A stretch of 45,510 nucleotides of DNA from a virus. The stretch is taken from positions 1-45,510 of IMG/VR virus record IMGVR_UViG_3300029319_000103. The stretch is one strand, 5' to 3'. The first letter of the stretch is position 1. Each line of letters begins with the position of its first letter. The translations under genes were made by a program, and so were the position numbers. Of the stretch, positions 577 through 41,999 are shown in pieces. The notes under the pieces are model-generated. The model was not told the origin of the DNA. It saw nothing but the letters and a program-made list of their open reading frames with translations, and searched no databases.

Positions 577-1004
577 GATGGTAGCCACCCTTTTGCATCT
601 GTGTTGACAAGATTCTCCAACACAGTGTCGTAAGGTATGAGATTAGTGTTACGCACAACCCTAAACTTTGGTATCTCACTATTCCACCAACCTACATATT
701 CACTAAACTTATCGTTATATTCTTTTTCGGACATAGCCATAACTTGTTCGTATGTGTGAGAGGAAATATCACTAGAGATACCATGTTGCTCCTTATCAAA
801 CAACCATTTATTCTTAGGTAAGATTTTATCTCTTTCATCATAAGGGGGCATGCTATCACCTCGCTCTAATATTTCTGAGCAGACATAATCCCATGCACCT
901 TGTTCGTCATAATACTCTGTATGTAGTATATCTTCCCTATCATAATGGTCGTCATCTTTCCAATACACATCATACGCTATTAACTTTAATTTTAAGTCTT
1001 TCAT
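573..1004 (-). CDS. Hypothetical protein, paralogue of the preceding gene (143 aa)
   Basis: Acidic, Tyr/Asp/Trp-rich protein of unknown function. With the neighbouring 138-aa protein it forms a tandem paralogous pair. The conserved blocks are the N-terminal LKLKLI, HTEYYDEQGAWDYV, MPPYDERDKIL and the C-terminal PYDTVLENLVNTD. The spacing of the blocks is similar in both, apart from an insertion in the middle of this copy (around residues 65-80). It overlaps the upstream 96-aa gene by four bases and its own stop overlaps the next start. Tandem duplication in a phage early operon is compatible with small host-interaction proteins, but nothing here proves that. Confidence 0.8.
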   Translation of the reverse strand: MKDLKLKLIAYDVYWKDDDHYDREDILHTEYYDEQGAWDYVCSEILERGDSMPPYDERDKILPKNKWLFDKEQHGISSDISSHTYEQVMAMSEKEYNDKFSEYVGWWNSEIPKFRVVRNTNLIPYDTVLENLVNTDAKGWLPS

Positions 1005-1291
1005 TCTTCATCTCCAAATATCCAAAAGGTTAAGGCATCAATCTTCCTACCAACAGTGTCTATGGCATCTCCATCTTTACAACCCATAAGTACAGCGATC
1101 TTATCTTGCAACCACTTGGGTAGGTCATCAACGCTATCATATACATCAAACAATTTTTTATCAACACAATTCATACCTACACACACGATTTCTACACGAC
1201 CACTATATTCATCTATGCAAATACCATAGAATGGATCGTGTGTTGTAAACCAATCGTCAAGTGTAGGTTTTAGTCTATGAGTTATAGACAT
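1001..1291 (-). CDS. Hypothetical protein, 96 aa
   Basis: Unknown function. The reading frame extends upstream to 1369, but that part is the out-of-frame 3' end of the 312-aa gene and reads like shadow sequence. I choose the ATG at 1291 (protein MSITHRLKPTLDDWF...), which has GAGGTG a few bases upstream. The product has an ICIDEYSGRVEIVC strand-rich centre, a helical section around LPKWLQDKIAVLMG, and an acidic end (FGDEE). The start overlaps the 3' end of the upstream gene by 17 bases, and its stop overlaps the next start by four, so translation is probably coupled. Confidence 0.7.
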   Translation of the reverse strand: MSITHRLKPTLDDWFTTHDPFYGICIDEYSGRVEIVCVGMNCVDKKLFDVYDSVDDLPKWLQDKIAVLMGCKDGDAIDTVGRKIDALTFWIFGDEE

Positions 1292-2213
1292 AGTACACCT
1301 CATCACAGAACTTGTAACCAATGTCCTCAAGGAACTTGTCTTTGTCCATAGGCATAAGAACAGACACACGTGACAACAAGTGATCAGTCAGCTCACTACT
1401 TGTCCCCAGCTCGGACTCGACATCTATCAACTGAGCCTCGTTAAGGTAACTTAAGCGATCTGTTAAATCTTTCGTTGATAATGTGTAAATCTCTTGGTCG
1501 TTACCAACACCTTTGACATACACAAACGTGTACTCTTGTTTTGCTAGAGTATCTTCTTGCTCTTTCTCTAAGGTAATGTATTTTTCAAGGTCTTCTTTGA
1601 AGGTCGGGTCGATAAAACTATGACCACTTGCCACTAGGTGTTTTAGTTCATCAAACAATCTTTTTGGTCTGCTAGAGCTACCCGATATTTCTCTGGATTG
1701 TTTATCTATTGCAGTCCCAAGCTCTAACAACGAGCCACTTCTGGCGGAACGAAAGTTCTCATAACTTGCAAACAACACGTTTGTAGGTGAATACTCACGC
1801 AAGTGCTTGACGGCATTACGAACAGCAGTCTTCATGTTGACAGACGACAGTTTGTAGTACACTTCTCTGTTGTATTTATCGGACTTGTTGTTCTGTATGA
1901 ATGGCGACCACACGTTGTATGTCCGTATTGTTTCGCCAACGCTATCGGAATAGCGACGATCACTAAAGTCTATCCTACCACGTGCAAACAACTCGTCTGG
2001 ATAGTATACCCATAGTACATTCCCCCTAGAAGTTGTGAAAGGGGCAAACTTAATGCCACGCAACTTGTTAGCAATAGCCAAAGCAAACTTCTTCACCTTA
2101 CCAGATTCCTCTCCAAAATCATCTGGTAAGTCTTTAGCGTTGACACCTTTACTTTCTATACTTGATACTAACTTGTGGTTAAACTTCTCCATTGAATAAT
2201 ATTCATTACACAT
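1275..2213 (-). CDS. Hypothetical protein of the MoxR/VWA operon, 312 aa
   Basis: I do not recognise a domain. The start is uncertain. The frame opens at 2228, but an ATG at 2213 (MCNEYYSMEKF) has GGGGGA at a suitable distance, and that purine run sits in the end of the upstream gene. The protein is soluble and mixed alpha/beta, with a Ser/Arg-rich patch near the middle (ISGSSSRPKRLFDELKHL) and a charged helical part (DLEKYITLEKEQEDTLAKQE). It lies directly downstream of the 88-aa gene and the HECKH/VWA gene, overlapping the former by 8 bases, so it is probably made with the MoxR/VWA set. A role as a further partner is inference from position only. Confidence 0.7.
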   Translation of the reverse strand: MCNEYYSMEKFNHKLVSSIESKGVNAKDLPDDFGEESGKVKKFALAIANKLRGIKFAPFTTSRGNVLWVYYPDELFARGRIDFSDRRYSDSVGETIRTYNVWSPFIQNNKSDKYNREVYYKLSSVNMKTAVRNAVKHLREYSPTNVLFASYENFRSARSGSLLELGTAIDKQSREISGSSSRPKRLFDELKHLVASGHSFIDPTFKEDLEKYITLEKEQEDTLAKQEYTFVYVKGVGNDQEIYTLSTKDLTDRLSYLNEAQLIDVESELGTSSELTDHLLSRVSVLMPMDKDKFLEDIGYKFCDEVYYVYNS

Positions 2214-2472
2214 CGTACATTCCCCCATTCTTTTTGGTTAATAAACAATCTACTTCTTCTTGCGACAAACTTGCACCCAACTCTTGACATACATCATTGA
2301 TACCCTCTATGACATTAGTCGGTACGGACTCTGAAGCCAGTGCCTTGTCACTGAACTCACGTAAACGTATTATCACGTCGTCATACGTGTAGTCTTTGTT
2401 GACAGCGTTGTCGCCAAATGCTATCTCAAACACGTCTTCAATGAACTCCACTGTTTGTAATCGCTCTTTCAT
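2206..2472 (-). CDS. Small hypothetical protein downstream of the VWA gene, 88 aa
   Basis: Acidic 88-aa protein of unknown function, predicted mostly helical (MKERLQTVEFIEDVFEIAFG near the N-terminus, LSQEEVDCLLTKK near the C-terminus). Its ATG overlaps the TGA stop of the VWA gene by four bases, and its last codons carry the ribosome site of the following 312-aa gene. The tight coupling to the VWA gene suggests it is made in proportion to that protein. No known motif is visible. Confidence 0.75.
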   Translation of the reverse strand: MKERLQTVEFIEDVFEIAFGDNAVNKDYTYDDVIIRLREFSDKALASESVPTNVIEGINDVCQELGASLSQEEVDCLLTKKNGGMYDV

Positions 2473-3692
2473 ACATCACCCCCTTTGATATGTAGTACCT
2501 TGCCAACGTCTGGCTTGGCATGTTTGTTGTCGATAATGCACCATAACAATGGGCATGACCATTTACCCCAACCACCCCACACTTCGCCATCTGTCAAGTT
2601 GACAACAGCTTGTGGTGTGATGTTGTTCGCTTTGAGATATTCGGGTACACACTCAGCATTAGTGCCACCACCATCTGTGACTTTGGTAGCTTTGAGAATG
2701 TTAGGTATCTCGTGTTGCTTGTACACCTCATCACGCACGACCTCACTGCCCCAATACAGTATGCGTACAGTATTCGGCTTGGTAACGTCACACGCAGATT
2801 TGACCTCAGACATGAACTTTGTAAGAACACGTTGACTGATAGAGCCACTAGTGTCGATGGCAATACACAACTCGTCAACTGTCTCGGACACACCACTCGG
2901 CACGTACATACGTAATGGTAGATACTTGCGGTTTGGTGTTCGCCATGTTGAGTAGTCATTACCACGACAAGTAGTAGTAACAAACTCACGTAGTGCATCT
3001 CGCCAATTAATTTGCGGTTTAAGTAACTCGTCAAGGTTGCGGTTGTGTCCACCCTTGCCCATCTTGCTTGCGGACAAGACACCTTGACGTATGGCTTCGT
3101 CAACCTCACGCTGTAGGGCATCTTGTTCATCTTGCGACAACGATGATGCTCCTTCCCAATCGTGTTCATCAAAGCCACCCGACGTGTTGTCAGATGAACC
3201 ATGACCTTGTCCTTCGCCTGTTTGGCTTTGTGACGACTCATTGTCTTGCTCTTGTTGTAACGCTTTGAACACTTGAGCTGTGTCCATGTCACGATACTTC
3301 TCGTCAAGCAAGCCACCATCTGGGAGTTTGCAAAACCCATCTTGGTTTTCGTCAACAATCTCAAGATTGATAACATAGTCCATAGCCATGTTGGCTAGTT
3401 GTGCATCTTGGTCAGCAAGATGTTTCCACGTGATTAGATGGCGATACATCTTGTGCTTGCACTCGTGAATGATAAGACCACGTAACTCGGGATCAGTCAG
3501 TTTGTCCACGAACGCACGACCATACATTTCATCACGACCATTGGTACATGCAGTGGGTATGTCATCACGAACAGTACGATCACCGATCATGAGTACACTT
3601 GCCAACGCGATATACCTATCGTCGTTCATCAGCTTGACAACAGCTTTTTGTAAGCGTTGCTCGGCTGTCAGTTGTTTACCTATTGCTAACAT
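2469..3692 (-). CDS. Metallopeptidase-like/VWA-domain protein (DUF2201-type), 407 aa
   Basis: Two domains are visible. The N-terminal half has the zinc-metallopeptidase signature HExxH as H76-E-C-K-H80 in GLIIHECKH, followed by AMDYVIN near residue 105, as in the predicted metal-dependent peptidase family (DUF2201/COG3864 type). An acidic, Gln/Ser/Gly-rich linker (about 145-200) leads to a C-terminal VWA domain. That domain has a complete metal-ion-dependent adhesion site: D280-T-S-G-S284, Thr344 in GGGTNAE and Asp368 in LTDGE. Such VWA proteins usually work with a MoxR-class AAA+ ATPase, and one is encoded just upstream with a 10-bp gap. A ribosome site AGGGGG precedes the ATG. Its target is unknown; whether the peptidase-like domain is active cannot be told from sequence. 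Confidence 0.88.
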   Translation of the reverse strand: MLAIGKQLTAEQRLQKAVVKLMNDDRYIALASVLMIGDRTVRDDIPTACTNGRDEMYGRAFVDKLTDPELRGLIIHECKHKMYRHLITWKHLADQDAQLANMAMDYVINLEIVDENQDGFCKLPDGGLLDEKYRDMDTAQVFKALQQEQDNESSQSQTGEGQGHGSSDNTSGGFDEHDWEGASSLSQDEQDALQREVDEAIRQGVLSASKMGKGGHNRNLDELLKPQINWRDALREFVTTTCRGNDYSTWRTPNRKYLPLRMYVPSGVSETVDELCIAIDTSGSISQRVLTKFMSEVKSACDVTKPNTVRILYWGSEVVRDEVYKQHEIPNILKATKVTDGGGTNAECVPEYLKANNITPQAVVNLTDGEVWGGWGKWSCPLLWCIIDNKHAKPDVGKVLHIKGGDV

Positions 3693-3702
3693 GTTGTACC
3701 CC

Positions 3703-4794
3703 CTATGAATTTTTGTCAGCTGTGAACATGTGAGTATTCTCAGTCATGAACTTGGTAAATGCGGGATTAGTGACAACGTCTTTACGTGCGAAGTAGTTGT
3801 CATTGTAAACACCATTGGCGAACATGCCTTGTGCCTCTGGCGATAGGCGATTGAGATATGTCATAAATGGTGTGACATAATCTTTAGTCATACTTGTTAG
3901 TGTACGATATATCACCATACATACCGCAGACGCATTGTCTGGCACGATAGCAGTCTTGGGATTGTCCTTGATACTGTCGCGTGATGGCAACTGTGAAGCC
4001 AGTTTGTGAAATGCCATTAAGTCCAAAGCACCGCGAGAACCAATACAACCCACAAGAGCAGACGTTAGTGTGTGTTCATCAATGTCACCACTTGCGTCAA
4101 GGATATGTGAAGCCTTGTGTAGCGAACGCGGTGTACAGAATGATGTGCGACCAACAGCTTGTGGGTGAAAGATGTACTGATTTTCTTCTGGGTCTTTGAC
4201 ATCTCGCCAATCTGCCATGACTTGTGGATTGTCTTTAACCCAACCCAACATAGTAGCATTGAGTCCGTTGTTGATACCCCACTCAATCCATGCCATGTGA
4301 TCGGGCTTGGCAAGCTCAACGATTGTGATGCGGTTACAAGCGTGTGCGGGTAACAAGTCGCCAACTCCCTCACCATCAAGGTTAGTTGTTAGGAACACGA
4401 TACTGTCTGGGTGCAACGTTCTGTTACCCATTTTGCCTTCTAGTATAAGACGTAACAACATAAGTTTGACACTTGGATTTGATTTGCCGAACTCGTCGAG
4501 CATGAGAATAATCGGCTTGTCTAAGTGCAACCCCAATGCCTCGTTGTAGATAAAGTTTAGGCTCTCACTACTGTTGTTGATGTCATACATAGCAACGTCT
4601 GGAATATCCATAGTGCTACAATCTGCGTAGAAAGGTGTGTGTGTCGGTAAACGCTCGGCGATCATAGGTAACAGTGATGTCTTACCTACCCCCATGTTGC
4701 CACGTACCAATACTGATACGTGCTTACCAACTTTTGCAATAAAGTCCGCACATTGTGTGTGGTTTTGAGCATACATACGTTCTGCTGTGTTCAT
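3703..4794 (-). CDS. MoxR/CobS-type AAA+ ATPase, 363 aa
   Basis: AAA+ ATPase with Walker A GNMGVGKT (about residues 32-39), Walker B IILMLDEFGKS (about 95-105), sensor 1 FLTTNLD, a likely arginine finger in NRITIVE, and a CTPRSL segment resembling the sensor-2 region of MoxR proteins. MoxR ATPases remodel or load metal into partner proteins together with VWA proteins. The adjacent downstream gene encodes exactly such a partner. The frame is open to a TTG at 4809, but I choose the ATG at 4794 because GGAG lies just upstream, at the spacing seen in the other leftward leaders. The leader contains a 30-bp repeat shared with the 195-aa gene and one copy of the 18-bp palindrome. Confidence 0.9.
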   Translation of the reverse strand: MNTAERMYAQNHTQCADFIAKVGKHVSVLVRGNMGVGKTSLLPMIAERLPTHTPFYADCSTMDIPDVAMYDINNSSESLNFIYNEALGLHLDKPIILMLDEFGKSNPSVKLMLLRLILEGKMGNRTLHPDSIVFLTTNLDGEGVGDLLPAHACNRITIVELAKPDHMAWIEWGINNGLNATMLGWVKDNPQVMADWRDVKDPEENQYIFHPQAVGRTSFCTPRSLHKASHILDASGDIDEHTLTSALVGCIGSRGALDLMAFHKLASQLPSRDSIKDNPKTAIVPDNASAVCMVIYRTLTSMTKDYVTPFMTYLNRLSPEAQGMFANGVYNDNYFARKDVVTNPAFTKFMTENTHMFTADKNS

Positions 4795-4801
4795 AATAAT
4801 A

Positions 4802-4831
4802 TTCTCCAATATAAATAATAAATAAGTTAAT
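4802..4831 (-). repeat. 30-bp leader repeat, copy before the MoxR gene
   Basis: Identical over 30 bases to 7548-7577, the leader of the 195-aa gene. It contains the GGAG ribosome site at its gene-proximal end and an A/T-only upstream part that would stay unpaired in the mRNA. Confidence 0.8.
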
Positions 4832-4838
4832 TAGGAAG

Positions 4839-4856
4839 TGGGGTAAATTTACCCCA
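4839..4856. promoter_or_regulatory. 18-bp perfect palindrome, copy 1
   Basis: TGGGGTAAATTTACCCCA. It lies between the DUF3150-like gene and the MoxR gene, and contains the TAA stop of the former. Probably an operator. Confidence 0.75.
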
Positions 4857-5760
4857 AATCCAAAGATGGTAATGTCTTGATAACATCATCAATCTTACGC
4901 TTGGTTGTTGCACGCAAGTGGCTACTGTCACGCAACGCATCTGGCGATACACCACGCAACGCTTTCTCAACCGCTTCGGCTTGGGCAGTCATCTGCGTGT
5001 CATTGGTAAGGTTACAAGTCTTCATCAACTCGACAACCTCAAAGACATTTTCAAGTAGCGTATCTCGAAATATCTTTTTGTCATGCTTGCCCGCGTAGTC
5101 GATACGTTCGGACATACGTGACAACACGTCATGCAGTCGATTGTGTATATCGCCCATAGCGGTTTGGATTTGCTCTTGGAATATAGATGAATAATCATTG
5201 ATAGCATCATCAACATACGCTTGAGCATCTTTACCAACATCAAGTCGCCAATCGCTAACATCGGTGATCGGGTAAGGTTTGATACGACAATCGAACTTGC
5301 TACGTACCGCATTGACATCTGGGTACTCGTCGTCGTCAAACAGATCGCCTAAGTTCGCTTGGGCTACCATAATGTGATCTTCGTAATCACGTAAGAACTC
5401 GTCGACAAGTATGTTGAACTCGTCTTGCATGGCAGACATACAATCAATGTAGTCTGGAAAACCTAGCGTTGACACGATACGTGTACCATTGTCAGTCCAC
5501 GGGCAAGTCATAGCGTAGTGTTTTGAGCGTATCTCATTCGCCTTAGTCTTGATGGCGGTCAGTTGCGAACAACCAGACAACAAGTTCTTGTGTACCGCAC
5601 TTGCATCTTTCGATGCACTGTTGGCAGAGTTGACTTGAGCAGATGCACGCTTGTCTTTCTTACGAGCAGTCCATTGACTAATGTTTAGGTCAACAAGTAT
5701 TGCTCGGTCGGATAGTTTAGGCACTTCGACAGTCGGTGCGTTTTGTAATAGATCGTTCAT
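4849..5760 (-). CDS. DUF3150-like protein, third member of the MoxR/VWA set, 303 aa
   Basis: Helical protein with no catalytic motif. The N-terminal pattern (ILVDLNISQWTARKKD), a following LLSGCSQLTAIKTKANEIR segment, a T-x-PW-x-D-x-G motif and a later FL-x-x-Y helix resemble the DUF3150 family as I remember it. That family is often found beside CobS/MoxR-like ATPases and VWA proteins in phages and integrative elements. The assignment is from memory and needs a profile search. The ribosome site AAGGAG lies in the last codons of the 113-aa gene. Its TAA stop is inside the 18-bp palindrome at 4839-4856, an unusual overlap of a coding end with a putative operator. Confidence 0.7.
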   Translation of the reverse strand: MNDLLQNAPTVEVPKLSDRAILVDLNISQWTARKKDKRASAQVNSANSASKDASAVHKNLLSGCSQLTAIKTKANEIRSKHYAMTCPWTDNGTRIVSTLGFPDYIDCMSAMQDEFNILVDEFLRDYEDHIMVAQANLGDLFDDDEYPDVNAVRSKFDCRIKPYPITDVSDWRLDVGKDAQAYVDDAINDYSSIFQEQIQTAMGDIHNRLHDVLSRMSERIDYAGKHDKKIFRDTLLENVFEVVELMKTCNLTNDTQMTAQAEAVEKALRGVSPDALRDSSHLRATTKRKIDDVIKTLPSLDLG

Positions 5761-5761
5761 T

Positions 5762-6103
5762 TCATTCTCCTTTACATGCTTTTATGTATGCCATTTTCAT
5801 AGCGTTCGATGCTAGGTCAAGATGACCCAACGCGGTATAGTAATGAGTGCAAGACTCAACTAATCTTTGACCACCTCGATCTGATATATCCTCTAGTGCT
5901 TCGGTGCATAGTAGAACTTGTTTGAGTGTGTAGATATAGTCATGCATCTCACGCAATTCCATGTTCTCGGTTCTATTACTAAGCTCATCAAAGATACTGA
6001 TTGATTCTTTCTTTCTTTCACGCTCTTTCCTCTCAGCCATTTGTTGGTGATAAGCATGCAGTTGTTCATGCTTTTCGATTGCCATTTTTTCTTTATCGTT
6101 CAT
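5762..6103 (-). CDS. Hypothetical coiled-coil protein, 113 aa
   Basis: Charged helical protein of unknown function. The first 35 residues are very rich in Lys, Glu, His and Arg (EKHEQLHAYHQQMAERKERE) and probably form a long helix. A second helical part (DYIYTLKQVLLCTEALEDIS) and a C-terminal helical part (HLDLASNAMKMAYIKACKGE) follow. The start has AGGAGAG upstream. Only one base separates its stop from the start of the DUF3150-like gene, whose ribosome site lies inside this gene's end. Confidence 0.75.
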   Translation of the reverse strand: MNDKEKMAIEKHEQLHAYHQQMAERKERERKKESISIFDELSNRTENMELREMHDYIYTLKQVLLCTEALEDISDRGGQRLVESCTHYYTALGHLDLASNAMKMAYIKACKGE

Positions 6104-6330: not shown

Positions 6331-6348
6331 TGGGGTAAATTTACCCCA
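6331..6348. promoter_or_regulatory. 18-bp perfect palindrome, copy 2
   Basis: Identical copy of TGGGGTAAATTTACCCCA, centred about 40 bases downstream of the predicted start of unit 3 and before the first gene. A bound protein here would act as a roadblock. Confidence 0.75.
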
Positions 6349-6796: not shown

Positions 6797-6814
6797 TGGG
6801 GTAAATTTACCCCA
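6797..6814. promoter_or_regulatory. 18-bp perfect palindrome, copy 3
   Basis: Identical copy next to three tandem TGGAACATT units (6762-6790) and 11 bases left of a 32-bp repeat. It is not next to a gene start. Confidence 0.75.
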
Positions 6815-7547: not shown

Positions 7548-7577
7548 TTCTCCAATATAAATAATAAATAAGTTAAT
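7548..7577 (-). repeat. 30-bp leader repeat, copy before the 195-aa gene
   Basis: Second identical copy of the leader at 4802-4831. Here it directly follows the leader terminator hairpin. Confidence 0.8.
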
Positions 7578-7667: not shown

Positions 7668-7685
7668 TGGGGTAAATTTACCCCA
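7668..7685. promoter_or_regulatory. 18-bp perfect palindrome, copy 4
   Basis: Identical copy centred about 68 bases upstream of the predicted start of unit 2, a position typical of activator sites. Confidence 0.75.
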
Positions 7686-7802: not shown

Positions 7803-8027
7803 TCACTCTTCCAAAGTAAAGCGCCTTTTAAGTTGTACATGATCAACTTTAAGACAGTTCCAAGCATCATGAGATGGAGTTTCTTCATCCATTACCATCC
7901 ATATTAACTGGCGTTTTATTGATTGCTCGTAATAATCGAGTTCATCATTTAACTTACTCAAGTCATCCTTGAGCTTATCCCTAGCATGTAGTAATTTACC
8001 CATGCTTTTATCTTTTAACTTACTCAT
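7803..8027 (-). CDS. Small coiled-coil protein, 74 aa
   Basis: Basic N-terminal half with a probable coiled coil (LLHARDKLKDDLSKLNDELD), followed by a hydrophobic/aromatic segment (IKRQLIWMVMDEE) and a C-terminal part ending FTLEE. Function unknown. The start has the TTGGAGAAATATTATG leader. It is the last gene of unit 1, and its stop is seven bases before the terminator hairpin at 7770-7796. Confidence 0.7.
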   Translation of the reverse strand: MSKLKDKSMGKLLHARDKLKDDLSKLNDELDYYEQSIKRQLIWMVMDEETPSHDAWNCLKVDHVQLKRRFTLEE

Positions 8028-17550: not shown

Positions 17551-17616
17551 CTTTATATGTCCCTGACTACCAATCACAATCCCGTGGGTAGACATTAGCC
17601 AAGACAGGAGAACAAC

Positions 17617-18246
17617 ATGGCGAATACAACTTTTCAAGGGCCAGTCCGATCTGAGGGCGGCTTTCAAACTATTACTAAAAATACTACTACAGGTGCTATT
17701 ACGACTAACATGTCTATTAGCTCTTCTGGTGTTGCTGATTTCAGTGCAAATACACTTACTACTGAAGCAGGAACTGGTATAACTGGTGGCACAAACACAG
17801 TTTATCGTAGTTCTATAATTCAAGAAGGCGGTATTATCACTACTAGAATTATGATTGATCTTACAGGTTTACGCTCACCCGGTACAGCAGGAGATATTAT
17901 TGGTGTTGATGGCACATCAAACCCTTGCCACATTGGTAGAATCTTAACTTCTGAGAGTGGCGAACTTTTTGGTGGCCGCATGACTTGTTTTGAAGCTCCG
18001 GGAGCAGGTGATCCAGACATTAACGTGTTTGCTGCTGATGAAGCTACAGGCGTAGAAAATGGTGCTATAGGTGACTTGACAGAAACACAACTTGTTGATG
18101 CAGGTGATGCAACAGTAGGTGCAGTTGATGTCTTTACAGCACTACCCGCTGATGGGCAATATTTGTACCTTACAATAGGTGATGTCACTGAGAATACGTA
18201 CAACGCAGGTAGATTACTTATTGAATTTTTTGGTTACGACGCTTAA
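17617..18246 (+). CDS. Virion structural protein, 209 aa
   Basis: Thr/Gly/Ala-rich, acidic, beta-type protein starting MANTTFQGPVRSEGGFQTIT. It resembles head- or tail-associated structural proteins of marine phages placed just after the capsid gene. It has no catalytic motif and no membrane segment. It has its own strong ribosome site (CAGGAG). Exact role unknown; a head-fibre or secondary decoration protein is possible. Confidence 0.6.
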   Translation: MANTTFQGPVRSEGGFQTITKNTTTGAITTNMSISSSGVADFSANTLTTEAGTGITGGTNTVYRSSIIQEGGIITTRIMIDLTGLRSPGTAGDIIGVDGTSNPCHIGRILTSESGELFGGRMTCFEAPGAGDPDINVFAADEATGVENGAIGDLTETQLVDAGDATVGAVDVFTALPADGQYLYLTIGDVTENTYNAGRLLIEFFGYDA

Positions 18247-33887: not shown

Positions 33888-36800
33888 ATGTGTGGTGGTA
33901 AGTTCGGTGAGATAACAGGTTTAGACTGGGTATATGAAAATATATGGGATGATTTTCTAGGTATAGTGCCGGGAAGGGGCGGCATTATAGGTGATTTTTT
34001 AGACGACGTTAATGATTATTTTTTTCATGGTGGTTTTGAAGATGATCTGCGTAATGGGTTGCGTTGGATAGATGATGAAATAATACAGCCAGTGTACGAA
34101 TTCCAAAAAGGAATAGTAGACGGGATAATGAGAGATCCCGGCAAGTTCATAATGGATGTTGTGTTAACTGTGGCCTCTGGTGGAACTTACTTATATTTTA
34201 AACCTTTTGTAGATGCAGCTTGGGCGTACGGAATGGATCACGTCTCTACAGAAGATGCAATTAAGATAGGCGTAACTAGTTATGTAACTGCAAATTATGC
34301 ACCTCAATTTGCTAGTAATTTGGGTACAAACGCAGCAAATTTTGCATCCACTTTAGGTGCAAATGAGGCCATGCAAGAAGCCATAAATCAAATGATAACG
34401 CAGGGCGTAACAAGAGGCACGGTTGAGTTTGCTACAGGTGGTAATTTTGCTGAAGGGTTTGCAGAAGGAGTTCTTGTTTCAGGTGCATCACAAGGACTTT
34501 CTAAAGTAATGGGTTACATTGAAGATAAAGGCGGTTTTAGTTTTGAACAAGTAAAAACAGATGCAGAAGGCACTCCCATAGTATCAGGCACTTCTGTTGA
34601 TGAGGCAACTGGAGTTCAAACTATAGAATTTGAAACTGAATTAAAAGCCCTACCACAAGTAGCACAAGACCTTTTAGCTGTTTCTATAGCTGCTGAATTA
34701 CAAGGTAAAGAAATAACATCTGAGTTGTTAGCCGAAACAGCTACACAATCGTTACTTACAGCTAAAGTAATGAATGTAGCACTGGACAAAATACCCGGCG
34801 TAGATTGGGAAAGCGATGCTGGGCGTTCTATATCTTCTATATTGCTACCTGCCATGCAACGTTCTGTAGCTAATGTGTTAGTAAACGGTGTAAATTATGA
34901 ATCTGGTCTTGCGACATCAAACTTTTTATTAAATGAATTTCAACAAGCAGGTTCTGAGGCTTTAGTAGCCGGCGTATCACAATTTTTAAGTGAGTTCGAT
35001 ATAGTAGATTCGGCAGCTAATAAATTAAAAACATCAATAGATAAATTAACTGGTAGATATCAAGAAGCGGAAGAACTAAGTTTAGAAATAGAAATAGAAA
35101 AAGGAAAATATAATTTACTTGCTGCTGAAAGAAATGCCAAAGTAGAAGATTTACAACAAAGACAAGCAGAATACGAACGCCAACTAGAAATATTTGAAGC
35201 AGAAAATCCTTACTATGTAGAAGCAAGAAATCAATTTACAGCGGGTTTGACAGACCCTATATACGATGCTGATGGACAGATACTTGGTTATCGAGGTAGA
35301 ACGCCGGGTTTGGAAGAATTTGATAGTCCCGGAGAATTATATGAATATACTTTAGAGCAAAACCCAGAGTTTGAAGGTAAACCGTATTCAGAAATACAAA
35401 GACAAGAACAATATCTTAATGAGCTAGCTGCTGATTTGTTCTATCTAAATGAAGTATATTCTAATGATATAAGTAGTATAGATACACAACTAATAAGTAT
35501 TGAAGAAACGGTAGCAGATATAAGAACAGAATTAGATCCTATACTGGACTTAATGTATAACCCCGGAGGGTTAGTAGAAGACTTAACAAATAACTTAAAT
35601 CCTTTAATAGAAGAAACTAATAAATCTATGGTGGAAAGTTTAGCACCAGATTTTGATGTAGATGAATACAGATTTATAAACAACATACCCGCCGATGTAG
35701 ATGCTTATTCCCATTATTTAAATGAAGGCGCAAGAACAGGTGCATTTACTTCTGAAATACAAAGAGAGGCATACTCAGAACAAGCCATGACTATATTTAA
35801 AGATAATGTTATGAAAGTTGTGGGAGGAAAAAACGCATCCGTACAGCAACTCACTGATGCACAGTTAGCTAAGTTTAATGATCTTGTAGGTACTTACGCT
35901 AACAACAATTTTATGACAGATGGTAAGTTAGACCCAGATAAAATGGGTACTAAAACTTTTCTTGATGCAGACGGTAATGTAACTACAAAAGAAAATGCCG
36001 CAGCCGTACAGCTTGATTTTTCGCAAACCTTTTTAGATGGGCTTAGTTCAGTAGGTTCTCAGTTTGATACTATATTAAATGAAGACTTTAATGTAAGTGA
36101 TGCCATAGCGTATCTTGAGTCAGCCGATTCAAAAGCAATAGAGCTTGCCGATGGCGTAGATTGGATAGATGTAGTGAGTGGTGGTGGTATAGGCTACAAC
36201 GCAGTTACTGGTAGAAAAGAGTATGTGTCTAAATTAACCACTGATGAAGGTAAAAGTGTCACCATGTGGGATGTATTTAACGGTAATGTTACAACATATG
36301 CAGACGGTATATCACTACAAGAAATACGAGAAGAAAGCCCTAAAACATTTTGGGATACATTAGTAGATATAAAAGATAATTATATAGCTGGCGTAAAAGC
36401 CGATATGGAGCAACAACAAAAAACTATAGATGAAAGAAACCAACGAGCCGCAGAAGCATGGGATACGTTTAAAGAAGGCACAAAAAGGTTTATTGGCACA
36501 GCGGGTTATACGTTATTAAATATATACGAAGCAGGGCGCAAAAAAATGTACGAAACTGCTGAAAAAAGCACCGTGGAAAATTGGGCTAGTGCAATTAACA
36601 ATGTTTATGAAAGAGCTATGAATTATAGTGACGTTGATTTTCTTGTAGATATTTATAAAACTCAAACAACATTAGGTGCATTACGAGATGAAGCATATGG
36701 TGAATGGGGACAACATATTAATGGGGTGTTAGCTGTGTTCGGTGCTGACCCTGAATATGTAGAAAATACAAGATTAGCACAATGGTCTAATGAAACCATA

Positions 36801-39800
36801 CAATTAGCCATGAGTGCTAAAACACCAGAATGGAAAGCCAATGTAAAACGTATGGACGAACTAATGAGTAATCGTGGTGTAGACGATCCTAACACTCCCA
36901 ACATAAACGAAGCTCTCTGGGGTACTTTAGAAATTATAGGCGGCGCGTTTGCAGAACACCCCACAGAGTTTTTAGGTGAAATTTTATATAAAGAAGGTAT
37001 GCAAGAATTAATCCCCGCATTTATAGGGGGCTTTACTGGAATAGCTACTAAATTAACTATGAAAAACGCAAGTAAAGATGCGGCAACTGCGTGGGCTACT
37101 AGAGCAGGATTAGGCGCGGCAGGTGTAGCAGATATAGCTGAGAGTGCAGGTGGCACGGCTGCTTCGGCTTATGAAGAGTCTTTTAACATAATAAAAGGTG
37201 TATTAACTGAACGACGTGATGATGGATATATCGACTATACAAATGACCAAATTGACCAAATAACAAGTCATTATGCTGCGGATATAGCCCAACGTAATGG
37301 TCAATTTGCAGGTATGACCACTGCTCTACTGTTAGGCATGGGTGGACTTGCATTAGAAAAAGTAATGTTTGGTAGTAATGTTGGAAAAAGGTCAGAGGCT
37401 TTTGAAGCGTATGCCACTAAATTAAATGGTAAATATTCTAATTGGTTAACAAGCACAGGTAAGGTAGCAAGTAAAGAGTCAGTATCAGAGTATTTAGAAG
37501 AAGGTGCAATAGAAAACAATTTTTCAAGTCAAATACTTAAATGGCAACCTGACCGTAACGTAACTGGTGAAGTGTTATTTAATGCAACCATGGGGTTTAT
37601 TGTAGCGGGGCCTGTGTCAGGCACCATAGCAGGTGTATCTAGTTTTCCTTTTGACATGCCCTCTTATGAAGACTTAACTGGTAGAACCGAAATGGCTGAT
37701 ACTGGAGATGTTATGGCTAATCTACTACTTACGTTTAGCCCTGACATAAAACTTGCCGTTGGTAACATGAATCTAGTAGAAGATGGTGAAAGAAAACTAT
37801 ATGAGGCTTTTTCAGATTTAGGTCTTTCTTTCGACACTACTAATGAATTAATAAATGCGGCAAATGATGATTTTTACACAAGCACAATAGTGGACTTTCC
37901 TTCTAGTGAAGATAATGACTTTGGTGCTCTACCACCTCCAGACTTTGATACGTTTGAAGTGCGTGCTCAAGAAGATGTTGGTACTGCCAGAGGTATATAT
38001 TATGACCCTGTGAGTAGACAAAGTTACCAACAAATTGGCTCTGGTTCTGATGTTGCATGGATAAGTGTAGGTAACAGAAACATAGATTTATTTGAAGGCA
38101 ACAAAACCTTAACTGAAGGTAGTACATTTAGAGATAGGTTATCTAATGCTACTTGGGGAGTATTTAAATCTGATATTGCTGGCGAAGATAGATTGTACCT
38201 ATCACAAATTGTCACTGACCCTATGAACCCTGAGAGCACTATAGATTTATATAGTGCATTAAAAAGAGATACAACAATACTAGATAATCTTCAAACCTAT
38301 GTTAATAGATACAATAGTTACTATAACAGTCCTTTTGCTATAGCAGTTAGAGAGATGGAGGATGAGCGTAACCAAATGGATCCAGAGGATGTAGCTCGGT
38401 ATGTTAACACTTTAGAAGGGTTTAAAACTGATTATTTACAATACCCTCCGGGTTCTGGAAACGTATTATCCTATGAGGACTTTGCAGCCAGAGCAAAAGA
38501 AAACGCTCTTTCAAGATTTGAATTAGAACAAAAATTTATAAAACCAAATAAAGAAGGTAGAAAAGATTTACGAATTCATGAAAAAGATTTTATACATATA
38601 GACGGATCTATTACTACCGAAGAATTTATGTCTGAATTGTACGGAGATTTGTTGTTTGATGGCACAGGATATGTAAAGGATATGCCTTCGTTTGGCTCTA
38701 TTGCAAATAGTGTTCCCGGCCAATTTAACTGGGATGATACGAATGTAGGTCAGTTCGTAGATTTTGTAGTCGGTGATTCTATACTTAATGTTCCACAAAG
38801 TGATAGCAGTGAAGAATTTGATGAAGACACTATTAAAAGTCTACCTTTTTTCAAAGTAGGCCCTTCGTATCAAGCAGATGATTATTTTGGTACCTTTGGG
38901 TTTGTAGATCCACGTGATGGAGAACGGTACTTAATAAGACCTGAACAGCAGGGAATGGATTTAGGTAACGGCCAATATAGGCATATGATAAATTTATATA
39001 AGGTCATAGGTGGTAGTGGAAATACTTTTCAAGGCGATAGACTTAGTTCTAAAGGTCAAATATTTCTTGGGATATCTACCGAACAAAACAATACCACAAT
39101 ACTTAATGAACTTAAAAATGACGTTAATAAAATTAAAGAATTGTTTAAAGATGCTCTTTATTTGGCAGATGGTCAGGGTGATAGTTTTGGTATACCTGAT
39201 GCAGAAATAGTAGCCGCAGCAAATTTTACAGATGTCTTTAATATAGACAATTTTATACGGTCTGAACTTACAAAAGCAGGGCTTTCACGCGAACAAACTA
39301 GTGGGTATTTATATAGTAAATCGAAAGAAGACCATTTTACTGATTTTAATACAAACGGTGCTTCTACATTAGATGATATAAAAAATAAAGTAATAACTTT
39401 AGAAGAAGCACGTCAAAAATTTAAAGCTCTTGACCCAGATTACGAACCTACAGAAAGTGATTTAATGTCTGGTAGTACACAAAACTTTTCTTACCAAGAC
39501 TTAGTAGATAAAAGTGCCCTTAACATACAAAATGAAATAGATGGGAACATATTACAAATAGTCAAACCAGATGACCCAGAAAGTAAAATGACAATGGAAG
39601 AATTTAAACAGTATGTCATGTCTGAATCTGGTTGGACACAAGAGCAAGCCGACAACTATGTAAGTTTACATGGAGAACAATTACAAAGTAATTTAGATGA
39701 AGCAGGTACTCAGTCGCAGTTTAAAGCACGTTTTGGGCAAACACTACAAGATTTTGTAATTACAGAAGCAGAAGCTAGAGCAGCGTATGCAGAGTTATAT

Positions 39801-41999
39801 CCCGAATATTCACCTACCGCACAAGACATAGCAGATGTAATTACGGGTGCAGATGTAGGAGAAGGGCAACAAGCTGGGTTAATACCTTTACTACAAAGTG
39901 AGGCTATATCTAACAAAGTTGCTAGTGAAACAGCTCGCATAGCAGAAGAAATAGCAAACAGAGATGGTTCTATAAATGAAACATCTATTAACGATAAAAT
40001 ATTAGAAGCTGCAAATAAGTATATAAGTGGTATGTTTACTCAAGCCACTGGTATGACGTTTATAACTTCACAACTTGAAGGCTATTTATCTACTCAAGAA
40101 GGTATGGAAGTACAGGCACAATTATATGGTGATTTACAACGCCTATATGCCGAAAATCCAGAAAGATTTATGAGACAAAACATTATTCCAAACCCTAATT
40201 ATGATGATAGCATAGCAACTAACTGGGACACTAATTATCCTACTATTAAAGTTATTGAACCAACATTTTATACGTCTGATTTTAGTAATACGGTAGAAGA
40301 TTTAGTAAATCCAAACATAAAGTCAAACGCAAAAAGATATGCAAAGGCGGATGCCATAGCAAGCAGACTTGGTTATAGACAAATAAATGTTCCACAAGAA
40401 TATAGAAAATACCCAGAAGATATTTTTAGGAATCCTGAATGGGTATTAAATAATTTTGGTGACATTATAGATAATATGCCGTTAATAGACTACGAAGGTG
40501 GTAAGAACACACTTGGCGTATTTAAAATAGCAGATCAAGCCATAGCAGAATATGATGCACAACAAAAAGGTAAGTTGTCCGCCATACTATCTGATCCGGC
40601 ATACGAAGAAATTGTAGATGAGCTATATCGTATGAATGGCACAGAAGAAGAAGCACGGACAATCGCTAATATGGCAATCGAGTTTGAAAATAAATATGGG
40701 TATAAACCCTCTGCCTTTGACTTGTTTGCAATATCAGCCAGTGATATAAACAATGCAGATATAATAGGTAATGAATTTAATAAAGCCGCTAATTTTTATG
40801 TAAGTAGTTACGGAGGCATAGAAAATATATCTGATATAAACGTTGACGATTACAGACCCGCTAGTAATAAATTTCAACAAAATAAGTTTTATCTTAGAGA
40901 TGAACTTGGTTATGTGCCAAATGATGAGCAAGTAAGAGACTTCATAAGTACAGTTGATTCTGGCGAACAAACCAGAGAAGAATATGTAAATGCCCGTCAG
41001 CTTACAGAAGATGAAGTTAAAGATTTTATTACTATGTACTACGCAGAGGGGTCTGATGAATACAACAGGTACATACGAGATTACCTTGGTGACACTGGTG
41101 TTGCTACAGGCACAAGTGCTACGTTTGCAGCAGATACATTTGCTAGATTAAGAAGTGACCTGACTGAGGAGATAGAACAAGCGCAAGCCGAAGCTGATGC
41201 CGATGCTAATATAGACCAACCAGAACCACCTGTAGAACCACCTGTAGAACCACCTGTAGAACCACCTGTAGAACCACCTGTAGAACCACCTGTAGAACCA
41301 CCTGTAGAACCACCTGTAGAACCACCAGAAACACCACCCGAAGTACCGCCTGAAGTACCGCCCGAAACAGATGATATAGGTAGGCGTGCAGACATAGTTA
41401 CTCAGGAAGATATAACTGCAACAGAAGGCATACTTGCAAGAATTCTTAGGGACTTTTTACCTACGCAAACACCTACATTCCAAGAGAGTGATCTTGTTTA
41501 TGATGTGAACAAGGATGGTAGTGTAGACCAAGCTGATTTAGATTTATTAAATGAGTTGTATGCAGGGCCAGATGCCACATATAATAAGGCAGTAGAAGGA
41601 TTACCAGAAGATTCGAGATTTGCAAGCACAGGTATTTTTGCTACACTTGATGATGAAATGAGAGCTAGAGCTGATATACAAGCTCAGTTAGATGCTCAAC
41701 AAGAAATAAATCAAAATTTAGAAACAATCACAAAATTAAATACTGCCATACAATTAGCAGATTTAATAGCCGAAGAAGAAGCATTAGGTGGTAGTCAACG
41801 TATTGACGTAACATCCCCAGAAAAGAAAGATTTAAAATATCTATATGATTTTGAAAGTATTTTTGCTACACCTGAAGAAGAAAGTTTATACACTGATGTA
41901 TTTGGTGATGCCGCAACATTCGGCACACGTAAGAAAGCTGCCGCTACTGGTGGTTTAATAACCGATACAGATAAATTGATAGAACTACTAGGTAAATAA
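33888..41999 (+). CDS. Giant internal virion/ejection-type protein, 2703 aa
   Basis: Very long, mostly helical protein, probably packaged in the head and ejected with DNA, as large podoviral internal proteins are; this is inference from size and position. The N-terminus is Cys2-Gly-Gly and hydrophobic/aromatic. Gly/Ala-rich segments (AFIGGFTGIATKLTMK; AGVADIAESAGGTAASAYEE near residues 1045-1095) may insert in membranes. Further on there are charged helical parts. Near residues 2445-2495 lies a Pro-rich spacer of EPPV units, then a dockerin-like loop VNKDGSVDQADLDLL (about 2538-2552), and the end is TGGLITDTDKLIELLGK. I see no lytic transglycosylase motif. Its composition is like its neighbours. 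Confidence 0.75.
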   Translation: MCGGKFGEITGLDWVYENIWDDFLGIVPGRGGIIGDFLDDVNDYFFHGGFEDDLRNGLRWIDDEIIQPVYEFQKGIVDGIMRDPGKFIMDVVLTVASGGTYLYFKPFVDAAWAYGMDHVSTEDAIKIGVTSYVTANYAPQFASNLGTNAANFASTLGANEAMQEAINQMITQGVTRGTVEFATGGNFAEGFAEGVLVSGASQGLSKVMGYIEDKGGFSFEQVKTDAEGTPIVSGTSVDEATGVQTIEFETELKALPQVAQDLLAVSIAAELQGKEITSELLAETATQSLLTAKVMNVALDKIPGVDWESDAGRSISSILLPAMQRSVANVLVNGVNYESGLATSNFLLNEFQQAGSEALVAGVSQFLSEFDIVDSAANKLKTSIDKLTGRYQEAEELSLEIEIEKGKYNLLAAERNAKVEDLQQRQAEYERQLEIFEAENPYYVEARNQFTAGLTDPIYDADGQILGYRGRTPGLEEFDSPGELYEYTLEQNPEFEGKPYSEIQRQEQYLNELAADLFYLNEVYSNDISSIDTQLISIEETVADIRTELDPILDLMYNPGGLVEDLTNNLNPLIEETNKSMVESLAPDFDVDEYRFINNIPADVDAYSHYLNEGARTGAFTSEIQREAYSEQAMTIFKDNVMKVVGGKNASVQQLTDAQLAKFNDLVGTYANNNFMTDGKLDPDKMGTKTFLDADGNVTTKENAAAVQLDFSQTFLDGLSSVGSQFDTILNEDFNVSDAIAYLESADSKAIELADGVDWIDVVSGGGIGYNAVTGRKEYVSKLTTDEGKSVTMWDVFNGNVTTYADGISLQEIREESPKTFWDTLVDIKDNYIAGVKADMEQQQKTIDERNQRAAEAWDTFKEGTKRFIGTAGYTLLNIYEAGRKKMYETAEKSTVENWASAINNVYERAMNYSDVDFLVDIYKTQTTLGALRDEAYGEWGQHINGVLAVFGADPEYVENTRLAQWSNETIQLAMSAKTPEWKANVKRMDELMSNRGVDDPNTPNINEALWGTLEIIGGAFAEHPTEFLGEILYKEGMQELIPAFIGGFTGIATKLTMKNASKDAATAWATRAGLGAAGVADIAESAGGTAASAYEESFNIIKGVLTERRDDGYIDYTNDQIDQITSHYAADIAQRNGQFAGMTTALLLGMGGLALEKVMFGSNVGKRSEAFEAYATKLNGKYSNWLTSTGKVASKESVSEYLEEGAIENNFSSQILKWQPDRNVTGEVLFNATMGFIVAGPVSGTIAGVSSFPFDMPSYEDLTGRTEMADTGDVMANLLLTFSPDIKLAVGNMNLVEDGERKLYEAFSDLGLSFDTTNELINAANDDFYTSTIVDFPSSEDNDFGALPPPDFDTFEVRAQEDVGTARGIYYDPVSRQSYQQIGSGSDVAWISVGNRNIDLFEGNKTLTEGSTFRDRLSNATWGVFKSDIAGEDRLYLSQIVTDPMNPESTIDLYSALKRDTTILDNLQTYVNRYNSYYNSPFAIAVREMEDERNQMDPEDVARYVNTLEGFKTDYLQYPPGSGNVLSYEDFAARAKENALSRFELEQKFIKPNKEGRKDLRIHEKDFIHIDGSITTEEFMSELYGDLLFDGTGYVKDMPSFGSIANSVPGQFNWDDTNVGQFVDFVVGDSILNVPQSDSSEEFDEDTIKSLPFFKVGPSYQADDYFGTFGFVDPRDGERYLIRPEQQGMDLGNGQYRHMINLYKVIGGSGNTFQGDRLSSKGQIFLGISTEQNNTTILNELKNDVNKIKELFKDALYLADGQGDSFGIPDAEIVAAANFTDVFNIDNFIRSELTKAGLSREQTSGYLYSKSKEDHFTDFNTNGASTLDDIKNKVITLEEARQKFKALDPDYEPTESDLMSGSTQNFSYQDLVDKSALNIQNEIDGNILQIVKPDDPESKMTMEEFKQYVMSESGWTQEQADNYVSLHGEQLQSNLDEAGTQSQFKARFGQTLQDFVITEAEARAAYAELYPEYSPTAQDIADVITGADVGEGQQAGLIPLLQSEAISNKVASETARIAEEIANRDGSINETSINDKILEAANKYISGMFTQATGMTFITSQLEGYLSTQEGMEVQAQLYGDLQRLYAENPERFMRQNIIPNPNYDDSIATNWDTNYPTIKVIEPTFYTSDFSNTVEDLVNPNIKSNAKRYAKADAIASRLGYRQINVPQEYRKYPEDIFRNPEWVLNNFGDIIDNMPLIDYEGGKNTLGVFKIADQAIAEYDAQQKGKLSAILSDPAYEEIVDELYRMNGTEEEARTIANMAIEFENKYGYKPSAFDLFAISASDINNADIIGNEFNKAANFYVSSYGGIENISDINVDDYRPASNKFQQNKFYLRDELGYVPNDEQVRDFISTVDSGEQTREEYVNARQLTEDEVKDFITMYYAEGSDEYNRYIRDYLGDTGVATGTSATFAADTFARLRSDLTEEIEQAQAEADADANIDQPEPPVEPPVEPPVEPPVEPPVEPPVEPPVEPPVEPPETPPEVPPEVPPETDDIGRRADIVTQEDITATEGILARILRDFLPTQTPTFQESDLVYDVNKDGSVDQADLDLLNELYAGPDATYNKAVEGLPEDSRFASTGIFATLDDEMRARADIQAQLDAQQEINQNLETITKLNTAIQLADLIAEEEALGGSQRIDVTSPEKKDLKYLYDFESIFATPEEESLYTDVFGDAATFGTRKKAAATGGLITDTDKLIELLGK
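41223..41318 (+). repeat. Eight perfect 12-bp repeats encoding EPPV
   Basis: GAACCACCTGTA is repeated eight times without a mismatch, followed by decayed units. It encodes a stiff, acidic Pro-rich spacer in the giant protein. Perfect copies suggest recent or ongoing change in repeat number. Confidence 0.9.

Follow-up and report, generated by a model that had tools for sequence, protein, structure and literature searches.

A DUF3150-linked trio of MoxR-like ATPase and metallopeptidase-VWA genes suggests an undescribed protein-remodeling step in mobile DNA replication

We analyzed a 45.5-kb virus contig from IMG/VR (record IMGVR_UViG_3300029319_000103, positions 1 to 45,510; this whole stretch of 45,510 nucleotides is called the window here) and noted that it encodes three adjacent, co-oriented genes: a MoxR-like ATPase, a protein that joins a zincin-like metallopeptidase domain to a VWA domain, and a DUF3150-family protein. 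This trio recurs in relatives of the window phage and on conjugative elements, with its ATPase, MIDAS and zincin-site residues intact and with DNA replication and recombination genes as recurrent neighbors. The trio suggests an undescribed protein-remodeling step in mobile DNA replication. We tentatively favor the explanation that it encodes an ATP-driven remodeling machine with a protease site and a DUF3150 adaptor, acting on proteins bound to the DNA of the element during replication or recombination.

Components of the trio and their operon

Minus-strand genes fill the first 8.6 kb of the window, and the terminase, portal, head and DNA ejection genes lie on the plus strand, starting at about 8.9 kb. 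Read from 6103 to 1001 on the minus strand, the operon comprises genes for a 113-amino-acid (aa) protein (p113), the DUF3150-like protein, the MoxR-like ATPase, the metallopeptidase-VWA protein (here, the VWA protein), an 88-aa protein (p88), a 312-aa protein and a 96-aa protein. All seven are co-oriented and almost contiguous, and most are preceded by clear Shine-Dalgarno-like sequences. The p113 and DUF3150 genes are separated by 1 nt, the DUF3150 and ATPase genes by 54 nt, and the ATPase and VWA genes by 10 nt; the VWA gene overlaps p88, which in turn overlaps the 312-aa gene. An earlier note, made from the sequence alone, had placed the MoxR, VWA and DUF3150-like genes in one tight minus-strand operon at 2206-6103, together with unknown genes of 113, 88 and 312 aa. 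All of these open reading frames and motifs were found as described. The last three genes had no informative family match in Pfam or PHROG, and the 312-aa gene (1275-2213) extends beyond that interval.

The VWA protein (407 aa; 2469-3692, minus strand) has an N-terminal zincin-like metallopeptidase domain and a C-terminal VWA domain, and it belongs to the N4 gp25 family. It is a DUF2201-type metallopeptidase-VWA protein (PF13203 plus PF09967), since both profiles pass the Pfam cutoff: DUF2201_N with an E value of 6.5e-26 (92 bits versus a cutoff of 23.2) and the DUF2201 VWA domain with an E value of 2.9e-15 (56.9 versus 26.4 bits). The zincin-site residues are HECKH at 76-80, H85, N101 and D105. 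As the earlier note had reported, the same protein contains a full metal ion-dependent adhesion site (MIDAS), consisting of DTSGS at 280-284 (D280, S282 and S284), T344 and D368. Conservation was scored over 86 VWA proteins, drawn from the window phage group, from N4, LUZ7, phage G and MinM2, and from plasmids: H76, E77, H80, H85, N101, D105, D280, S282, S284 and T344 were invariant (86/86), and D368 was kept in 85. The protein is predicted to have peptidase activity; its zincin-domain profile weakly matched selecase MJ1213 (E value, 0.002), and M48 peptidases matched more weakly still. A tblastn search with the VWA protein matched 767 phage records. Its PHROG match was to PHROG 1314 (E value, 3.8e-90), whose "HNH endonuclease" label we rejected as unsupported, the Pfam architecture being metallopeptidase plus VWA. 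Both PHROGs and numerous phage records give the N4 gp25 family this label, which seems to have been propagated.

The ATPase (363 aa; 3703-4794, minus strand) belongs to the N4 gp24 family and matched PHROG 1297 ("ATPase"; E value, 8.1e-44). It probably starts at the ATG at 4794, which has GGAGAA just 5' of it, and not at the TTG at 4809 given in the open reading frame list. As had been noted earlier, the protein is complete, with the Walker A motif GNMGVGKT and the Walker B motif IILMLDEFGKS. With residues counted from the 4809 start, G42/K43, D105/E106, N143, R160 and R228 were kept in 72 to 77 of 77 sequences; we take N143 to be the sensor-1 asparagine and R160 and R228 to have an arginine-finger role. 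The near-invariance of the active-site residues in the 86 VWA proteins and 77 ATPases argues that both proteins are under selection to retain ATP hydrolysis, MIDAS metal binding and the zincin-like site. The Pfam AAA match was just over its cutoff. AAA_5 (PF07728) missed its cutoff (15.6 versus 22 bits), while the relatives in MinM2 and plasmid pSYSA are annotated MoxR, and for this reason we use the term MoxR-like. CobS and CobT family models matched none of the window proteins, and a genome scan with the window ATPase as the query found nothing.

The third component (303 aa; 4849-5760, minus strand) matched Pfam DUF3150 (PF11348) below the cutoff (E value, 0.0064; 16.3 versus 24.9 bits). Nine of 16 relatives also matched DUF3150 (best E value, 1.3e-6), and the cutoff was passed by the L039 homologue. 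When the 303-aa family was compared by hhalign with DUF3150 proteins from conjugative elements and from genomes, the probability was 96.6% (E value, 5.8e-10). An AlphaFold2 model of the protein (predicted local distance difference test score [pLDDT], 81.6; predicted template modeling score [pTM], 0.69) superposed with template modeling (TM) scores of 0.80/0.83 on a phage protein annotated as DUF3150. Relatives, profile comparison and predicted fold together confirm the protein as a divergent DUF3150 member; the profile searches placed it in no unrelated family, and the DUF3150-like call of the earlier note was upheld. A PDB fold search with the model gave no solved-structure match (best E value, 0.71), and PHROGs searched for this family and for the 312-aa family gave nothing consistent. 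Mycobacterium phage Dylan gp94 was rejected as a remote DUF3150 protein (fold E value, 4e-3; TM score, 0.38; no sequence support). Dylan gp94 (L123:32933-33760; 275 aa) adjoins the AAA ATPase gp95 and is probably the 275-aa protein that weakly matched the DUF3150 model in the fold search.

Conservation, spread and genomic neighbors

Co-occurrence was assessed with hidden Markov models in the window and in 95 related viral loci. The loci were gathered with VWA and DUF3150 queries, and the census describes relatives of the window phage, not phages in general. Among the 63 VWA genes with more than 3.2 kb of sequence upstream, a same-strand MoxR gene was present in all 63 and a same-strand DUF3150 gene in 62, the single locus without DUF3150 being L095. 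The gene order was DUF3150-MoxR-VWA in 57 loci and MoxR-DUF3150-VWA in 5, with median gaps between the matched stretches of 123 and 37 nt. The genes are thus kept together, and co-occurrence and profile searches support the earlier proposal of a conserved three-gene module of the protein-remodeling type. Mean identities were 59% for the VWA protein, 61% for the ATPase, 44% for DUF3150 and 24% for the 312-aa protein. Pairwise distances correlated within the trio at r values of 0.64 to 0.76, compared with 0.35 to 0.47 for TerL, 0.44 to 0.50 for the 312-aa protein and an intermediate 0.46 to 0.63 for PolA, a pattern that is supportive rather than proof.

Phage neighbors were counted in 42 loci with at least 8 kb of sequence after the VWA gene. 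The genes that followed encoded PolA and a PD-(D/E)XK nuclease (40 loci each), an SNF2 helicase (39 loci) and an Hjc-like nuclease (36 loci). The VWA gene of LUZ7 lies directly 5' of helicase and PolA genes. The terminase/portal module was divergent from the trio in 27 of 29 loci.

In cultured phages, a DUF3150 homologue was found in only three records, the cyanophages MinM2, Pag-Yong1 and Pra-JY27, and MinM2 carries all three trio genes. HTVC027P and 023Pt_psg01, the closest cultured relatives by terminase, have no annotated trio in their early regions. The window DUF3150 protein matched 44 plasmid records, and every locus opened from these matches had the order MoxR-DUF3150-VWA (Burkholderiales megaplasmids, Rhodovastum and Variovorax); on a Simplicispira plasmid, the ATPase gene lies some 4 kb upstream. 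Scans with a profile of the window DUF3150 branch covered 369 genomes of one class and 398 of its phylum, and each gave a single convincing match, both times the Rhodocyclus genome used as the center, whereas DUF2201_N was above its cutoff in 61 of 185 genomes of the class of the Rhodocyclus scan. Therefore, the VWA type of the pair is common in bacteria, and this trio is rare outside mobile elements.

Canonical DUF3150 was found in 8 of the 398 genomes of the scanned phylum. Most of the seven genome neighborhoods opened contained a CobS-like AAA protein and a CobT-like VWA protein with a MIDAS, usually with HExxH as well. Plasmid records with the canonical type number 1168, of which 978 are typed as conjugative. 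R997, whose DUF3150 has 100% identity to the query, has the order ssb-bet-exo-AAA-(255 aa)-DUF3150-(146 aa)-VWA-radC, and pQBR55 and an Azospirillum plasmid are arranged like it; in all three, ssb-bet/recT-exo lies directly upstream of the AAA gene. The DUF3150 proteins and ATPases of phages and conjugative elements were homologous by profile, and SXT/R391-type elements and other conjugative plasmids carry the trio in a highly diverged form that is CobS/CobT-like. The ssb, bet and exo genes of SXT are s064-s066, and gene order suggests that the s067-s070 region corresponds to the trio. From these phage and conjugative-element neighborhoods, the two versions of the trio, although highly diverged, therefore share a type of neighbor. 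We also noted that the Synechocystis plasmid pSYSA (L104, 5913-8191) carries a MoxR plus metallopeptidase-VWA pair that lacks DUF3150 and lies close to toxin-antitoxin-like genes.

Other operon genes and features of the window

The 312-aa protein is a conserved, fast-evolving partner, and its minus-strand gene (coordinates above) has a Shine-Dalgarno sequence. Of 65 loci with more than 4 kb after the VWA gene, 63 encode the family 3' of that gene, in this phage group only, and its mean pairwise identity is 24%. An alpha/beta model of the protein (pLDDT, 89.4) had no match in a PDB fold search (best E value, 0.18). p88 (2206-2472, minus strand) overlaps the VWA stop codon and has homologues only in L017 and L018 (2 of 95 loci), and p113 (5762-6103, minus strand), separated by 1 nt from the DUF3150 gene that follows it, has no phmmer homologue in the 95 loci; both were rejected as parts of the system. 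The suggestion that the trio has extra partners accordingly survives for the 312-aa protein, within this phage group, and fails for the 88- and 113-aa products. The gene for the 96-aa protein (1001-1291, minus strand) usually follows the 312-aa gene, and homologues were found in 72 loci; its open reading frame is listed as 122 aa (1001-1369), with an alternative ATG at 1291. Between the VWA and 312-aa genes, 42 of 65 loci carry an uncharacterized gene of about 320 aa, f6 (e.g., L073:7762-8733), which neither the window nor its closest relatives have.

The 54-nt gap between the DUF3150 and ATPase genes contains an 18-bp perfect palindrome, TGGGGTAAATTTACCCCA (4839-4856; strand not applicable), which overlaps the DUF3150 stop codon. 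Exact copies lie at 4839-4856, 6331-6348, 6797-6814 and 7668-7685, all in the minus-strand gene region; these 4 exact copies of the core in the window compare with 0.12 expected when up to 3 mismatches are allowed. Near-copies were absent from the rest of the window, and no copies were found in related loci. The palindrome is probably an operator or transcript-end element of the window phage. An identical 30-nt leader, TTCTCCAATATAAATAATAAATAAGTTAAT, is present at 4802-4831 and 7548-7577, directly 5' of the ATPase gene and of a 195-aa gene, with shorter versions at 8024 and 8232, and is possibly a shared promoter/ribosome-binding-site unit.

Elsewhere in the window, the Rfam Mu-gpT-DE RNA motif was matched at 17561-17619 on the plus strand, just 3' of the major head protein gene (52.8 bits; gathering threshold, 49). 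Two tandem, related minus-strand genes at 160-588 and 573-1004 encode 142 and 143 aa, with about 75% DNA identity over 99 nt, and have no homologue in the related loci. A single open reading frame of 2703 aa (33888-41999, plus strand) stands among the late genes and had no convincing Pfam match.

Candidate functions and known relatives

In the remodeling machine favored here, the MoxR-type ATPase, presumably a hexameric ring, would be the motor, and the VWA protein would dock on both motor and substrate via its MIDAS. Its zinc metallopeptidase site would probably clip material extracted by the motor, and DUF3150 would be a third subunit, most likely an adaptor that selects the substrate. We infer that the three products form such a complex, which would be produced along with the DNA replication and recombination proteins of the element. 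Most likely it would strip, remodel or cleave one or a few host or element proteins on element DNA or on recombination intermediates, and their clearance would let replication or recombination proceed.

Several points weigh against this explanation. A replication-gene neighborhood is not proof of a DNA-linked function, and the distance correlation within the trio partly reflects linkage, since adjacent genes are co-inherited. DUF3150 was not detected in N4, LUZ7 or phage G (best E value, 2.6), which have the pair, and the third subunit is therefore dispensable in other lineages. The VWA protein of the Azospirillum plasmid lacks HExxH. Several Burkholderia-type plasmid trios adjoin type IV secretion genes instead, which weakens the replication/recombination pattern without overturning it. 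Deletion of s067, s068 or s070 in SXT reduced transfer by at most 10-fold (PMC2791158); with the trio assigned there by gene order, the machine would therefore not be essential for conjugation.

The earlier note had proposed use against a host defence. A role in host takeover or counter-defence, in which the machine would unfold, release or cleave a regulatory or defence complex of the host early in infection and its target would be chosen by DUF3150 and the 312-aa protein, is unlikely in our estimate. The operon does lie on the early side, away from the virion genes, and the trio is mobile across phages and plasmids, like many anti-defence genes; moreover, DUF3150 and the 312-aa protein diverge far faster (44% and 24% identity) than the motor and VWA protein (about 60%), as target-facing parts would. 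However, PADLOC and NCBIfam scans gave only weak, partial matches, none of them convincing in PADLOC, the trio is near-universal rather than patchy in the sampled phage lineage, and its steady phage neighbors are replication and recombination genes. Use against a host defence is thus unproven.

We consider it quite improbable that the trio is a chaperone-protease of virion assembly or maturation, the role proposed for the same pair architecture (MoxR plus vWA/metallopeptidase) in group 2.2 jumbo phages (PMC7824862); the N4 gp24/25 homologues of roseophage RPP1 also lie near its second structural module (PMC4193335). The trio, however, heads the replication genes and is divergent from the terminase/portal module in nearly all loci scored (27/29), N4 gp24/25 are middle transcripts, and homologous trios occur on conjugative plasmids, which make no virions. 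Very improbable is a chaperone that, in the manner of CobS/CobT, CbbQO, NorQD or CoxD, inserts a cofactor or metal to mature an element or host metalloenzyme: most characterized MoxR-VWA pairs serve enzyme maturation, and the conjugative-element ATPases and VWA proteins resemble CobS (TIGR01650, below cutoff), CbbQ_C and CobT, but no window protein matched CobS or CobT, no constant metalloenzyme gene lies nearby, and the invariant HExxH, unneeded for that role, is left unexplained.

The ATPase/VWA pair and the metallopeptidase-VWA architecture are already published. The pair is the catalogued N4 gp24/gp25, core genes of N4-like phages that are middle transcripts of unknown function (PMC4193335, PMC7650795). 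Like the window, the N4 pair (Schitoviridae core; PHROG 1297/1314) consists of homologous ATPase and metallopeptidase-VWA genes, neighboring and on the same strand in the early/middle region, and the LUZ7 copies are annotated N4 gp24-like and gp25-like; unlike the window, it has no detectable homologue of DUF3150, the 312-aa protein or f6. Group 2.2 jumbo phages share the two-protein MoxR plus metallopeptidase-vWA architecture, but their pair is described without DUF3150 and proposed for virion assembly, whereas the window has a trio beside replication genes (PMC7824862). SXT/R391-type elements and other conjugative plasmids have the same three component types, with HExxH and MIDAS in most, but in both the VWA protein is CobT-like and not DUF2201-type, the ATPase is CobS/CbbQ-like, and the genes lie inside ssb-bet-exo operons. 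The MoxR-vWA ternary conflict systems likewise have a fixed order of AAA+ MoxR, VWA protein and a conserved third component; theirs is VMAP or iSTAND, their effectors vary and their distribution is tied to multicellular bacteria (PMC7159879), whereas the third component of the window is DUF3150-like, with no VMAP or iSTAND Pfam match. RavA-ViaA of Escherichia coli is also a MoxR ATPase with a VWA partner, but it is a chromosomal two-component pair for which no DUF3150 is described, and it is set apart here by description only. The suggestion that the system is undescribed therefore holds for the trio, its DUF3150 link and its distribution across phages and conjugative elements, which are unnamed in the searched literature; "DUF3150" appears in no paper of that literature, subscription papers being outside its scope.

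These observations bear on a core pair of a whole phage family, N4 gp24/gp25, of which a distinct branch is one version of a three-part module. The module is also carried by conjugative plasmids, some of them from families that disseminate antibiotic resistance, and is tied to DNA replication and recombination. The misleading "HNH endonuclease" label of the VWA family is corrected. It is possible, if on the doubtful side, that DUF3150 marks a widespread, undescribed three-subunit ATP-dependent metalloprotease of phages, SXT/R391-type elements and other conjugative plasmids, with the task of clearing or processing proteins on mobile-element DNA during replication or recombination. A concrete, testable role is thereby offered for DUF3150 and the gp24/gp25 pair, with E77 of the HExxH motif as a clear active-site handle.

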